Source: Paraphysoderma sedebokerense (lineage: Eukaryota; Blastocladiomycota; Physodermatomycetes; Physodermatales; Physodermataceae). From it: DNA of 64,000 nucleotides. Of this stretch, positions 53,007 through 63,141 are shown in pieces. The notes below the pieces were generated by a model. It saw only the letters and a list, made by a program, of their open reading frames with translations. It did not search any database and was not told the origin of the DNA. Every line of letters starts with the position of its first letter. Within the stretch, counting starts at the first letter, position 1. The stretch lies in NCBI GenBank assembly GCA_025602915.1, contig JAHLJZ010000001.1, positions 372,001-436,000 of the forward strand. The letters run 5' to 3'. The position numbers and the translations under genes were made by a program.

Positions 53007-56000
53007 CTATACGTAACGCGACGAAATCAACATTCCTAATATCGCTACATGTAGCACTACGAAATAAAAATGAACACCAAGTCTGGTTGTTGGATGAGCT
53101 CGAAGGTAGTTCATGAACTTAACACTAATAAAAGCACATGATTTAGCGAACAGGTATATGAAACGATACAAAAATAACGTACCAATATTGATCTACCCGT
53201 CGAACAAGCGGTCTAAAACCAGGAGGTATTTTGTACCTGCTCATTCTCCTTCCCAACGCCATCCCTGCTTCTTCGTCTTCGGTGTCACTATCTCCCGACA
53301 TCAACCGGAGCCGTACGTCTTCGGCTGCATTGCCACTGCGAGAAAGAATGGTGGAACTAATCCTTGATGATTGCTGAATCCTTTCAACCTCTAATGTCTG
53401 AATTCGCTCTTTCAGGCGCTTATTTTCGTCCAACAGACCATTTACATTTGCAGCATTCAACGAAGAAGAAGCTTGAGATTGCAGCTGTAACTCCAACTGT
53501 CGTAATTTTTTCAGCGACTCAACCTTTGAATTTTCTGATACCTTGAGGTTACTCTTTGTTGACTCCAACTCGTTGTGAAGTTTTTCCTTCTCCATGCGAA
53601 GACTCCCTAGTTTGCGCATGAATTCTTCAACCTCCGCATTGTCTGTCGACTTGTTCATTTCAGCCTTCTGATATATTTCTTCCAACTCCTTAATTCTTTT
53701 TTCGCTGCCCGCTTTTGATTGATAAGCCTGCTGTAACTCGACCTCCAAATCCGTCACACGACTATTTAAACGGCTCAAAACAGACTCTTGTTCGCTGCAT
53801 CTAGAATTCACAGATTGTAATCGATTTTCCAGTTCTATAACGATCCGGGCATGATCTTCTTTCATGGTTTCGAGTTGTGCCCGTTGCGAATTAACATTAT
53901 TGTCCCTATCGGCGAGTTCCGAGTTCAGTCGAGCCTCGGTCGTTTCAAGCTCTGAAATGCGAGTTTGAAGTGATGGCATGATGTTGATTTTAACTTGAAG
54001 AGCCTGGAGTTCACGCTCCATTTGCTCGACGTTGCCTAATTTCTGTTCATACGACGTGAGTTGAGATTCTGCGTCCTTCAACTTTTGCTTAAGATCAACA
54101 TTTTGAGTTTGCAGTAAATGTTCGGCTTGTTCGAGATCAGAAATGCGAGATTGAAGAGAAGGGAGTGAATTGGCTTTGATTTGAAGATTATGGAGATCCT
54201 GTTCGCGACTAGTGGCTTCCGACATGTAAGATGAGATTTCAGATTCCATGCTTTGTAGTTTTTGACGGAGTCCGCCATTTTCGGACTTGAGTTGGGACTC
54301 TGTTTGTTCCAGGCTGAGTAAACGAGACTGAAGAGATGGAAGAGAGTCGACTCTGGACTTGAGTTCTTCAAATTCTGCTTCCATGTGACCAACATCGACT
54401 AATTTCTGTCTGTAAGTAGTGACCTCGCTTTCGGCTTCTTGTAACTTTTGCTTCAAACTATCCTTCTCAATTTGTAGCGACATTTCGGCTTTTTCAAGGT
54501 CAGAGATACGAGTTTGAAGTACCGGCAATGAATCGACTTTTCGCTGTAAATCTTGAAGCTCTTGCTCGCGATTGTCGACATCCAATAATTTTTGCTGATA
54601 GGATGACACTTGTGATTTCATTTCTAGCAATTGTTGGGAAAGTTTATCATTCTCAGTTTTCAAAGCGCTGATAGTGATTTCCAACGATCCATAGTCATTC
54701 AACTTCAGACTCATCTGTTCAATCTCAGAACTCCGCTCGGCCAACTCGTTCTTCATATTCGTATTCTCTGTTACCAACGCTTCATAATTTTGAACTCTCG
54801 AACGGACCTCATTTAATTCAGTCGTTATATCAGTAAGCTCATTCTTCACACGTTGGTTCTCTGCATTCAATTCGGTGGCAGTGGAGGCTTCAGCCGTCAG
54901 TCGAGATTGCAATTCCATCAACTGATTTTTCAAAGACCCCACTTGTTCATTCATTCCACTGTTAAGAGCTTCAAGTTCATTGCGTCGAGCGATTTCTGTT
55001 TGTACTGCAACTCTCAAGTTCTCTACTTCCCGCTGAACTGTAAGACTTTCTTCCGAAAGCCTCTGTTTTTCTGATTCCAATGCCACACGTTGGGCAGATT
55101 CCTCGTTCAGTTTGGATTCAAGAATTTCCAATCGAGACTTCGCTTCATCGGTACTGTGTAACTGATCCGCTGCTATCTGAGCCTTGACCTCTATCAATTC
55201 TGTAATTTGCTTCTCGGCTGCACCAAGTTTACCCTGAAGCAGTGCATTATCAGTCTGTAACCTTTGAATGATTTGGCTGGAGTCTGAGTCAGATTGTGCC
55301 GACGATATCTGAATTTGGTTCAACTGTTCTTCTACGATTTGCTTTTCACTGGTCAAAGTTTGCAGTTTTGCAGATAGATCTTCATGACGAGACTCCCAGT
55401 CACTCGAAATACGGCGAAATTCGTCGGTTTCAGCTTGAAGTTTGCTAATACGTTCGTTCGAAAATTTAACATTCTCATCCAGGCGAGCTTGTAAATCACT
55501 TAGCTTTAACTCAGATTGACGAGTTAGCTCTTCGTTTTTAGAAATCAGATCCGCGTTCTTTTGGCTCAAATATTTGAGCTCCGTATTCAGATTCTCGACG
55601 GTCGAATTTGGTTCCGCGCCTTCTGGTTGGATCATGTTCGTGGTGTTTTTTGAAGATTCTTTTAATTCCTTGATCAGGATATCCCGTTCATAAATCATAC
55701 GGTCTTTTTCGTTTATACTATCTTCCACTGATTTTGCTCTTTCCTCCGCTTTGACACTTGCGGCCGATTCAATTTCCATAGACTGCTTTTGAATCAACAA
55801 TTCTTTTTCTTCCAATAATTTCGACTGATTCTGAATCGTGTTTTGCATTTCTTGAATTTTAGATTTCACCCGTGTTTTCAGCTGGTCAAAATTCAATTTG
55901 AGATGTTGATTTTCTCGACGGAGGGATTCAACATCATCTACTGCGGCATCAAGAGAGGTCGACGACATTGATGGAGTGATACTTGGCGAAGTTGATGAAC

Positions 56001-56592
56001 TAGTGCTTTGGCATTTCAACAGTTCAATTTCCCGCTATAGAAGGCCCCAATAAATCTCTGTTCATAACTTCCGTCGAATCATCAGGAATGGAACATTACC
56101 TCCTTTTCCTTCAATCTGTTCGTATACTCTTCCGTTTTGATTTGATTCATTTGCTCAAAATCTCGTAATGTTGACGACAGGTCATTTTTTTGCTGTTGTA
56201 ACTGCATTATCTGTTGCAAGAGTTCATGATTTTGCCGCTCTAAAGTTGTATGTGACAGCCGCAAATTTTCTATTTCGAAATTCTGTATACTCGCCGGGGA
56301 CTAAGTCACTTGGTTAGATGCTTGCGCCAGAGGGTTGAATAAATTATCACAAACTATGGCATACCTCGAACTCCATTAATGTCGGATCATCTGAAAGTCC
56401 CATCATTACTCCACTCTTGTGAGATCTCGTAGACCCTCTTCTCTGAGGAATTTCTCCATCGTTTTTCTTGAGGAATGCGGAGCTGTCTTGCGTCTTGAGC
56501 GTTTCGGCAGCTTTTTTGACGGCTTGGTCCGTTGACTCAATTAGCTGAGAACCAAGGTCAGATATTTTTGACAAATTAAGTGAGGACCACAT
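53007..56592 (-). CDS. Golgin-84/CASP-like Golgi tether: long coiled coil with C-terminal membrane anchor
   Basis: About 1,090 aa on the minus strand. Exon 1 (from 56592) encodes an amphipathic N-terminus, MWSSLNLSKISDLGSQLIES, similar in character to the start of golgin-84. Exon 2 (about 56100-56300) and the large exon 53155-56035 form nearly 900 residues of heptad coiled coil with repeating blocks (SLPSLQSRISDLEQ and close variants occur about five times). After an acidic SGDSDTEDEEAG motif and PPGFRPLVRR, a last short exon gives YLRAHPTTRLGV and a hydrophobic span (FYFVVLHVAIL), ending at TAG 53007-53009. The LRxxPxxR plus tail-anchor layout matches golgin-84 and CASP, which tether vesicles at the Golgi. 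The last splice (TAC/TTC) is inferred; without it the frame would stop at 53143 without an anchor. Confidence 0.78.
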
Positions 56593-57356: not shown

Positions 57357-60300
57357 ATGGGCATAATTCGCTGGCAGTTTGCTGTTATTATTTCTCTCCT
57401 ACTTCAGGGAGCTGGAATATACGCGACAAATGGTATGTATCTGGATTGCAGTAACTGAGTCGAATGTCCAAATCTGACAAAATATGCTTCAAGTAATCTC
57501 GACAGGGGGGTCCTCTTTTGCAGCACCGCTATACAAGCAATTGATGACATCCTATAATTCATTGCCGAAATGGGACAACTTTCTGTACTCAGCTATAGAA
57601 GTAGCAACAGCGGTACTGGGGAGAACTATGTATGTCAAAATCCACCTTTCATACATTGTGTACTTCTCCGTCAAAGTAACATTTCTTCTCCGAAGGTTGC
57701 TCAATAAGACCTATATCTTTGCGGGAACGTGAGTAACATTTGGTTGATTTTACGCGAGAAGGATTGTATCCTCATGCTGTTGCCGCCATAGTGATAATGG
57801 ATGGACAATCCCACAAACTAGTCAATCCATGCGTGACAATGTGATGATGATTCCTTCAGTCGCTGGGGTCTGTATAAACCCACTTCAACCTATGTGTATC
57901 GATTATTACTGACCATGAGTTTAAATTTAGGCCGTAGTAGTAGTATACAATTTGCCGCAGCTGCGAGATGTGCCCTACTTTTTAAATCTCTCTCGCGAAG
58001 CGACAGCCGACATTTTCCTCGGAAGGATTGTCACATGGAATGATGCGGTTTTGCAGGCTTTAAACCCTTCTGTTCAGGTTCAAAAATGTTACTTTCTTTA
58101 CTCCTAAGTACCACAATCATTTTAACGGGTAACAATGTCATTAGCTTCCGAACGAAACGATCCGAGTTGTGGTCCGAAGAGACCAAAGTGGAACAACTGA
58201 GAAGGTAATTTTTTTGATTGCCTGAATCATTTGGCTATGAAATTGCGTAACAAGTTAACGCTGTATAGTTCACAAGTGCCTTGTCGAAATTTAGCCAAGA
58301 CTTTGCTTCACAAATAGGTATGTGAGAATTTCGTAAATAAGGCTCAGATTTCAAACTGACAGCATAATAGGGAGATCGTCTCTGCCCAAATGGAATAAGG
58401 TAAGCAGTAATCGGCGCGAACAAGTTTGATTTCTGGTTCTGACGGCCATTACAATGTTATAGCAAGATTACAACGTTTCTGGAAACGGCGGAGTAGCGTG
58501 AGTGTAGTTTTTACCTCTGCGTACAATCATTTCAAGCATATTTCTAACTCATGTTTAGCCGAGCTGTCGCCGGTTTTGAGTATGCGATAGGATACGTTGA
58601 CATCGCTGTAAGTAAAGAAAATGATGTGCAGTAAGTTCCAACTCCCAAACTACAGACTCACGTAGTTATTTCATCTGACTATATTTATATAGATATGCAA
58701 CAATGATAAACAAACGCGGAATGTATGTCCGTGGAAGTTATGAGTCCTTGGAAGCTACGCTCCGAAACTTGCCTCAGTCGGCGGTTACATCCGTTGGTAA
58801 CCTTACCGAAGACGTCGATCTTGCAGATTTGGATGGAGATGCTTCGTATCCGCTGGCAGGATTGACTTATTATGTGCTCAATCGAACCGTTGATCCTGAA
58901 AATTGCGATACTATGAGGTGATATATCACTTCTACGTTGAAGAACACATTGAGAACTGCTAACATCATATTGAACAGGCATGCAGCCAGATACCTTCACT
59001 GGAAGTACACATCTTCGGTAGGGAATCACAGACATAGACCTTATAAAGTTGAAACGGAAACTGATGAGCATCTTGCCGTAGATTGCTGTCGACATTGCGC
59101 ACACTTATGAATTCGCAGTAATATCGGGACCAATTCTGGAACGCACAATCCAGTTACTTCAGACAGTCCAATGTGAAACGGCGACGAATGCAAAAGTTGC
59201 CTTGTGGGGTCAATGTAAGATCTCGTCGGTTTATCACTACGTCTTAACGCGATGCTAATTATGCTTCTTCCGAAACAGCGGTTTGTGATGTAAGTGCCGA
59301 GGCGAATTTACCAATTAAATGCAATCAGTGAAAATTTAATTAATTCCCTTGTTAGACTGGTTGCAAAAATGGGAAGTGTCGCTACACATACGGATTTCAA
59401 CCGTCCTCTGAAATATGTTCCTGCGACCTCGGTTACAAAAATCAGAAATCAAACGATTGCTCCGAAGAGATTATACCTACGACCATGGAAATGACTGATC
59501 CTGGAGTCGCAGTTATTGTTGTTCTGTCATCCGCCCTTCTCTTTCTGACTGTTGTTGTCATTGCCGTCATTGTGTATCATCGTCACCATAAAATTATTAA
59601 AGGTATGGAAATCTTAGCAAAGCAATGCCATCACGCACTTATATTCACTTCAACATATTTTAGCTGCGTCCCCTCTTTTCTGCGTTCTTTCGGTAAGTTG
59701 TCAAAAGTTTTAACATGAGCGAGATTTCAACTAAAGATTCGGCCTTCGCTCCTTGGTGTCTTGCTTGCATATGTCGATGTTTTCCTTTATGTGGGTCGAC
59801 CAAACGATGCTATTTGCGTTCTGAGACCCACGATTGTCAGCATGGCATCCGCAATATTTTTCGGGTAAGTAGTAGAGTCATTAGGTTTCGGAATTGTTGT
59901 TTCCCTACATTAACGATTTCGTATTAGGACTGTGCTTCCGAAAACCTTCAGTACGGTATTCCTCTTTCTGCGGTGGCCCCGTTCACAATAATTAAAAGGG
60001 AATCTTCTTTTTTTTTATCTCAGGAATTTATCGTGTATTCAGAAGAATCCGTGCCCTAAAATCTAGTATTAGCGATCAACGGTTACTGATGCAAAGCGGA
60101 TTTATTGTGGCCGGCAACCTCTTGCTACTTATCATTTGGTTCGCCGTCAGCGCTCCCAAAGCTGTGTTAACTCGAGGCATTGACGAGTCCAAGTATATTT
60201 GCGTAGCTGAAAATCTAACATTGGATACAGTTATGGTTAATATCCTTTTGGTTTATCATGGATTGTTAATTGCTGCTACTACCTTTTTGGCATTCAAAGT

Positions 60301-61323
60301 TCGGGTTGCAAAAGATGTTTTCAATGAAGCTATACCTCTTGGAATTTCAGTCTATGGTAAAGTACCCTAATATCTTCTATAAACTGGGTTTATATGGATT
60401 TCATTAATAGATGGAGGACTCAACTTTATAGGAGTTACCACAGTTGCGATATTCTTTGTTCCTGTAGGTTTTATACCAAGCATCAACCAACCACGTTCCT
60501 TCTTCGTACATCAGCATCTATCGTGTGCGCTACGACGGTTTTAATGGTGCTTTTTGTTCCAAAAATAATGGCGATACTGCGTCCGGCCACAGCTCCACGT
60601 CCATGCTAATATCAGCACTACCGCGCCTTCTTCGAATGTCATTACCAAGAAACCGATTGCACAGAGTCAAGCTAGCTCAACTGTCCAAACCAGTTCTCCG
60701 GCAGAGGTAAATTTGACGTACTCTTCTTAATTCCCTAATTCTGTTAAACTAAACAATTTATGTCTTCATAGTTTTATTCTTGCGACTTCTATTGCAAGAA
60801 GAACGGGTTATTTTCCTCTTGGAACCTGATTAAACTAAATATGTTCTTAATCCCTGATGTGCCTGGGACTGGTGTTCTCACTTTCCACGATCGGATTTAT
60901 CAGTAGTAAGTTCCTGGTTTAATTCTTGAGTCGAATTGTTTTCCAATTTTAATTAAATTTCATACTTGACACTTGGCAGATCATTCATACTTTCCGAATA
61001 CAAGACGTAAAACTTATTATCGATGAGAAACTACGAAGCACAGGTTTATCCAGATCAAATCCTTCCAGTAGTAACAATGGTACCGGTTCAAATCCTTCCA
61101 AGCAGACTAATACTGGCCCAAATTTCGGACGATTGATGTTTGCAGATGGGTACTACGATTTGGAAGGAAAATCTACCCAGTCAATGGCAATCTTAATGAA
61201 AGCTTTTACAGGGAACACAATGTGAGAGAATCAGCTGTTATTAATCCTAGTAGATTGAATTATCCGCAGCCTGATGCTGCCCAAAACAGTATTTCTAATC
61301 CTGTCAGATCATATTTCAAGTAA
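57357..61323 (+). CDS. Class C GPCR with PstS-like phosphate-binding ectodomain and EGF-like module
   Basis: A signal peptide (MGIIRWQFAVIISLLLQGAG) leads into a PstS-type fold: VISTGGSSFAAPLYKQ, FAGTDNGWTIPQ, VAGAVVVVYNLPQLRDV, ATADIFLGRIVTWND, VVRRDQSGTTEKFTSAL and AIGYVDIAVSKEN. These keep the PstS order and most phosphate contacts. A Cys-rich EGF-like module follows (CDTGCKNGKCRY to CSCDLGYKN, 59279-59440), then TM1 (59500-59580) and TM2 onward from 59730 with family-C features: VLRPTIVSMASAIFF, KTFRIYRVFRRIRAL, TM4 (60095-60165), TM5 (60235-60300), TM6 (60420-60480), and TM7 ending VLFVPKI (60517-60580). The tail (60590-61323) is Ser/Asn-rich with a PH-like segment (LFSSWNLIKLN). About 22 small exons, most in phase. 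Two places read in a shifted frame (near 57590 and 60510), and the tail splicing is unclear. A phosphate-sensing role is inferred. Confidence 0.75.
59279..59289 (+). other. 11-nt microexon of the GPCR gene
   Basis: CGGTTTGTGAT is flanked by AAACAG and GTAAGT. It completes Ser and encodes Val-Cys-Asp, giving the first Cys of the EGF-like module. The exon before ends in phase 1 and the exon after starts in phase 0, so the 11 nt are needed for the frame. Confidence 0.75.

Positions 61324-61687: not shown

Positions 61688-63141
<1,454 letters not shown>

Follow-up and report, generated by a model that had tools for sequence, protein, structure and literature searches.

A PstS-type class C receptor family in Paraphysoderma sedebokerense and its probably decaying member

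A PstS-type ectodomain on a class C seven-helix core

We analyzed a 64,000-nucleotide stretch (hereinafter the window; bases 372001-436000 of a 954-kb contig) from the assembly (27.3 Mb in 195 contigs) of Paraphysoderma sedebokerense, a fungus of the Blastocladiomycota described as infecting the alga Haematococcus. Its forward strand carries a gene, modelled at NCBI as BKA69DRAFT_17888 (P0012, 494 aa), that links a PstS-type ectodomain through a cysteine-rich segment to the seven-transmembrane (7TM) domain of class C G-protein-coupled receptors (GPCRs). On balance, we favor reading it as a decaying member of a six-gene family of such receptors, whose intact members would sense phosphate with their PstS-type ligand-binding module. 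An intact paralogue on contig 30 (C30) was modelled by hand and then served as the guide for scripted spliced alignment of the family loci; the window gene, 54% identical to the C30 model, was recovered as a joined model of 22 exons with AG/GT borders (Table 1). Three introns (57868-57930, 58205-58268 and 59684-59736) occur only in this copy among the six guided models. The model ends at about 61225, short of the end at 61323 proposed in an earlier note on this DNA; P0012 covers the ectodomain, the linker and the first transmembrane helix (TM1), and then enters an intron.

The earlier note had recognized a signal peptide and a PstS-like domain with the motifs GGSSF, FAGTD and RRDQSGTTE; all are present in the window gene, and P0012 matches the Pfam domain PF12849 (PBP_like_2) with an E-value of 2e-19. 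It had also named a best score to some other fold as the outcome that would count against it; PstS is the best-scoring match of the ectodomain fold, which scores far higher to phosphate binders than to molybdate/tungstate binders. The ectodomain shares its fold and most of the residues of the phosphate cage with bacterial PstS (E. coli 2abh and 1ixh; Yersinia 2z22), which differs in serving an ABC importer as a soluble binding protein, without a 7TM domain. In Pfam scans, the C30 model, the slip-bridged window reading, P0003 and P0005 (the latter from Phlyctochytrium) showed only PF12849 and 7tm_3 above cut-off, and no type I (ANF/LIVBP) flytrap was seen in any of the four. We accordingly rejected a LIVBP-type ectodomain, which was seen neither in these scans nor in the fold tables (absence from the latter being no proof by itself), and the proposed union, in one gene, of a PstS-type rather than LIVBP-type binding domain with a class C 7TM core is borne out, as are motifs indicative of phosphate.

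The membrane part has seven helices in the class C GPCR arrangement and fold. Read across the frame slips described below, the window copy matches PF00003 (7tm_3) over profile positions 3-251 of 251 (E-value 1.1e-45); full-profile matches were also obtained for the C30 model (1.3e-48, profile 2-251) and P0003 (2.1e-46), and P0012 alone yields 21.2 bits, under the cut-off of 33.5. The seven class C spans noted earlier are hence present but do not lie in one open frame. The linker holds six cysteines in an EGF-like spacing (3-4-12-1-11) that is identical in P0001 and P0003 and differs in P0005 in the first gap only. The EGF-like character ascribed to it holds for this pattern but not for domain models: none of the EGF models passed its cut-off in the Pfam/HMM scans, the best being EGF_PEAR1L (E-value 0.66; 10.5 bits against 37.5). 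The class C 7TM core is shared with the metabotropic glutamate (mGlu) and calcium-sensing receptors, which, however, carry a type I flytrap and a nine-cysteine domain where the present proteins have a type II PstS flytrap and the six-cysteine linker.

A six-gene family with one probably damaged copy

Queried at the protein level with the ectodomain plus linker, the genome yielded 41 exon matches (E-values up to 0.01), all on contigs 1, 2 and 30, and the genome holds six PstS-7TM genes: the window gene on contig 1 (C1), four intact receptors in tandem on contig 2 (C2a-C2d; 185.9-205.5 kb) and C30. A search of the genome with the PF12849 profile was weak (three exon matches only) because introns split the domain. 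The domain order is the same at all six loci, and the six models possess 17 to 21 introns, many at shared positions, on which grounds we rejected bacterial contamination. For C30, a gene spanning 3.85 kb with 18 introns, the protein P0001 (868 aa, 99% identical to our model) derives from a 2757-nt sequence, most simply a spliced RNA; as this one sequence holds the whole protein with both domains, the fusion is supported for the C30 paralogue. Two full-length database searches, each scoring no more than its 8000 best candidates, yielded, among the matches listed, neither a transcript-like sequence nor another near-identical protein for the window copy, and a search with the 7TM domain alone listed six proteins, three of them additional to those already found. 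Three NCBI models of the family look incomplete: besides P0012, which enters an intron, P0002 lacks exons after TM1 that are found in the C30 model, and P0018 comprises the 7TM domain only.

Relative to its sisters, the window copy slips frame near 60.49, 60.59 and 60.89 kb. In addition, up to about 58 bases of exon 2 (about 57.57-57.62 kb) are out of register, with the frame still open and a longest homopolymer of four. The unbridged spliced frame runs for 661 codons to a stop inside TM7, so that as assembled no single open frame passes through all seven spans. The five paralogues in the same assembly show no frame slips and no internal stops. A bypass of the slips by introns was tried and rejected, since at a slip penalty of 60 both slips in the TM7 region were kept and the third became stops. 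The window copy is thus probably a decaying member of the family and, judging from its frame, quite likely non-functional; the decay, if real, would be recent, given that the remainder of the protein is conserved. For the tandem copies, dN/dS (Nei-Gojobori, six pairs, at high dS values of 0.9-1.5) ranges from 0.10 to 0.21 for the ectodomain and from 0.06 to 0.09 for the 7TM domain; they look to be under purifying selection, which constrains the ectodomain less than the membrane part. In pairs with the window copy dS is at or near saturation, and any relaxed selection on it is therefore undatable.

The phosphate cage

We traced the cage of E. coli PstS, which we take to consist of Thr10, Phe11, Ser38, Asp56, Arg135, Ser139, Gly140 and Thr141, through an alignment of 18 rows (P0002, P0008, P0010 and P0018-P0020 left out), counting Ser for Thr10. 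Equivalents of Phe11, Asp56, Arg135 and Thr141 occur in all six family copies, as does Ser or Thr at position 10. Position 38 is Ser in three copies, Thr in two (C2a and C2b) and Ala in the window copy, the last on account of the displaced exon 2 stretch. Positions 139-140 read Ser-Gly in the window copy and Ser-Ser in C30; within the tandem array they are Ser-Ser in C2c and Gly-Pro in the other three. The window copy, C30 and C2c score 7/8, C2d 6/8, and C2a and C2b 5/8; none of the five intact copies has all eight residues. The complete set is found in four other PBP_like_2-7TM proteins (P0005, P0013, P0014 and P0015) and in the Tetraselmis protein P0016. Leaving the reference aside, four of the six prokaryote-type rows lack Thr141, which indicates that the cage is no given of the fold. 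At the equivalent of Asp137, P0005 has Lys, P0013 Gly and P0015 Glu; the titles of entries on PstS Asp137 mutants with bound phosphate suggest that this residue is dispensable. We take phosphate to be the somewhat favored ligand of C30 and C2c, and a tentative one, short of even chances, for C2a, C2b and C2d.

Relatives in other eukaryotes

The PstS-7TM architecture and its six-gene family are real, but the window receptor is not the first of its kind. SPPG_06488, a glutamate-family GPCR of S. punctatus, is listed with a PBP_like_2 domain (PMC3251606, 2012); as described, it comes, like the present family, from a zoosporic fungus and pairs a PF12849 binding domain with a class C 7TM domain, but it is a single chytrid gene with no ligand named in the available text, as against six genes in a member of the Blastocladiomycota. 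In Plasmodiophora brassicae, 7tm3 domains are fused to SBP or PBP_like_2 domains, and four proteins were assigned phosphate by homology (PMC4815078, 2016); we infer that these four are the PBP_like_2 ones. According to the same source, transcripts show the fusions to be single coding regions, and they were named transporters and thought to be unique to the species. As described, they share with the family studied here the domain pair and a phosphate assignment by homology, and differ in that Plasmodiophora is not a fungus and its proteins are called transporters. The class C GPCRs of anaerobic gut fungi likewise join a type II binding-protein ectodomain to a class C 7TM domain, but their SBP type II domains resemble binding proteins of sugar uptake (PMC5168858, 2016). 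The view in the earlier note that class C receptors are known only with LIVBP-type domains is, in light of these three reports, out of date. In the open-access literature we found no functional study of such receptors; phosphate has been reported to act directly on the calcium-sensing receptor (PMC6795806).

A tree of the ectodomains separated receptor/sensor from prokaryote-type sequences with support of 98/98; it comprises 16 rows (11 receptor/sensor and a thin set of five prokaryote-type), is midpoint-rooted, contains a long Phlyctochytrium branch and carries no claim as to origin. P0016, from the green alga Tetraselmis chui, has a PstS-type ectodomain (PF12849, 4e-26; two TIGR00975 stretches; all eight cage positions, with Ser for Thr10) together with a class I cyclic-nucleotide phosphodiesterase domain (PF00233, 4e-58), and is a candidate for another eukaryotic PstS sensor with a different output. 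P0015 (1094 aa), labelled Batrachochytrium salamandrivorans, is a receptor of class C in which TIGR00975 matches two stretches; the first of its PstS domains clusters with the Tetraselmis protein (support 96/94).

Evaluation of alternative readings

Several observations weigh against a family of phosphate receptors with one decayed member. Gly-Pro stands for Ser139-Gly140 in C2a, C2b and C2d, Ser for Gly140 in C30 and C2c, and Thr for Ser38 in C2a and C2b. Against the curated cut-off of 205 bits of the NCBIfam PstS model TIGR00975, seven of the eight sensor proteins scanned fall short (P0014, 201.9; P0001, 199.5; P0016, 182.1; P0012, 179.5 with an E-value of 8e-53; P0013, 173.0; P0015, 150.1; P0005, 110.2); P0003 (209.3) and the bacterial-type P0006 (378.9) lie above it. 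P0011, one of the four prokaryote-type proteins lacking Thr141 and without much of the cage, nevertheless bears the name of a phosphate-binding protein at its source, so that presence or absence of the cage does not mark phosphate binding cleanly. The model of the whole receptor reached a predicted template-modelling score (pTM) of 0.48 and lends no support to a coupling geometry, the one message-like sequence is that of the C30 paralogue, and the frame slips could be assembly errors. The PstS-type ectodomain may have been recruited to another ligand, be it another oxyanion, a phosphorylated metabolite or a small molecule of the host, making these proteins chemosensors rather than phosphate receptors; the changed Ser139-Gly140 pair (five of six copies, three with Gly-Pro) and the tandem array of four copies speak for this. 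We nevertheless hold it to be unlikely, in view of the four cage residues kept in all six copies, the full cage set in all four other PBP_like_2-7TM relatives compared, and a fold far nearer to phosphate binders than to molybdate/tungstate binders. That the family consists of transporters, the function put forward for the Plasmodiophora fusions (PMC4815078), draws on PstS supplying the binding component of an ABC importer, but is highly improbable given a membrane part with the class C GPCR fold and the lack of any ABC permease or ATPase domain in the four proteins scanned with Pfam. A wrong joining of separate ectodomain and 7TM genes, which the earlier note had named as the other outcome against it, has in its favor the NCBI window model that stops after TM1; it is next to inconceivable beside the 2757-nt sequence covering both domains in C30, the identical order at all six loci, and the presence of both domains in the NCBI-named P0002, P0003, P0005 and P0015.

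As for the window copy itself, if the slips were assembly errors, it would be an intact sixth receptor. Conservation of the slip-bridged protein over its full length, which requires any decay to be recent, and the homopolymer of four in the exon 2 stretch agree with this. The five paralogues free of slips in this assembly, however, speak against sequencing error; homopolymers in the slip regions reach lengths of only 2, 2 and 3, the NCBI model at the locus is cut to 494 aa, and no second near-identical protein was among the matches listed, making an intact sixth receptor decidedly unlikely. Alternatively, a truncated protein, made up of the signal peptide, the PstS domain, the linker and between one and six helices, might be produced from the locus and act as decoy, scavenger or dimer partner, in keeping with the frame that is open across the entire ectodomain (661 codons as assembled); with exon 2 displaced from its register where PstS has Ser38 and no transcript-like sequence among the matches listed, we give this little credence.

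Table 1. Coordinates of the receptor gene and its parts in the window
Feature	Position	Strand	Basis or remark
PstS / EGF-like / 7TM gene, probable decaying paralogue, 22 exons	57357..61225	+	guided spliced alignment; NCBI model P0012
Exon 1: start codon and signal peptide	57357..57432	+	model; first residues of P0012
PstS-type (type II periplasmic-binding-protein) ectodomain, exons 2-13	57494..59214	+	
Exon 2 stretch out of register with paralogues, frame open	57565..57622	+	Ala at PstS Ser38 equivalent
Six-cysteine EGF-like linker, exon 14 and start of exon 15	59279..59469	+	Cys spacing
Class C seven-helix domain (7tm_3), limits approximate, complete only across frame slips	59485..60606	+	PF00003 1.1e-45
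First frame slip region	60480..60510	+	longest homopolymer 2
First in-frame stop of as-assembled spliced frame, inside TM7	60542..60544	+	
Second frame slip region	60575..60612	+	longest homopolymer 2
Cytoplasmic tail; blocks KKNGL and FADGYYDLEGKS common to all six copies	60772..61225	+	
Third frame slip, in cytoplasmic tail	~60880-60905	+	longest homopolymer 3

On the reverse strand, the receptor gene is adjoined at 61688-63054 by a putative AAA ATPase gene, read from the reading frames and presumably resembling a 26S proteasome regulatory subunit; at 53143-56034, also on the reverse strand, lies a coiled-coil-like open frame of 963 aa with no Pfam match at 0.001.

Discussion

We propose that the extracellular flytrap of intact members would close on phosphate in its inorganic form, or else on an oxyanion much like it, and that its movement would pass via the short cysteine-rich EGF-like linker to the class C seven-helix domain, which would in turn activate heterotrimeric G proteins; the fungus might thereby read external phosphate in the water or near its algal host. 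We hold it quite likely that the intact members would couple to G proteins. Profile searches of the genome gave 25 exon matches to G-alpha, so that a transduction partner exists, and 12 to SPX; with SPX-domain genes present, the receptor would add to SPX sensing and not replace it. Exon-level matches to 7tm_3 number 50 and those to the ANF-receptor domain 16, several of the latter within a few kb of 7tm_3, which suggests that type I class C receptors coexist in the genome. Two 7tm_3 matches in this genome (G000; C17:15284-15715 and C17:38619-39050) have identical scores, as do two G-alpha matches (C54:22032-22598 and C103:29009-29575), suggesting recent duplications or uncollapsed haplotypes.

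To our knowledge, it is not settled how eukaryotes sense extracellular phosphate. The SPX route reads the internal state. In mammals, extracellular phosphate sensing has been called unknown (PMC10104895). More tentatively, eukaryotes may possess scattered direct receptors for extracellular phosphate built on PstS flytraps, with class C 7TM outputs in blastoclads, chytrids and plasmodiophorids and a phosphodiesterase output in Tetraselmis; the Paraphysoderma tandem array, with its drifted cage and its 7TM domain under stronger constraint, would then be a family diversifying its ligand. The idea of a phosphate receptor is a reasonable one for the PstS-7TM family. A GPCR core joined to a PstS flytrap that keeps most of the phosphate cage offers a candidate receptor for extracellular phosphate that can be tested directly. 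For such work the window copy would be the wrong one to study; the copies of choice are C30 and C2c, with the natural cage variants within one genome as built-in controls. The family also bears on how type II binding proteins, alongside the LIVBP type, came to be on class C receptors.
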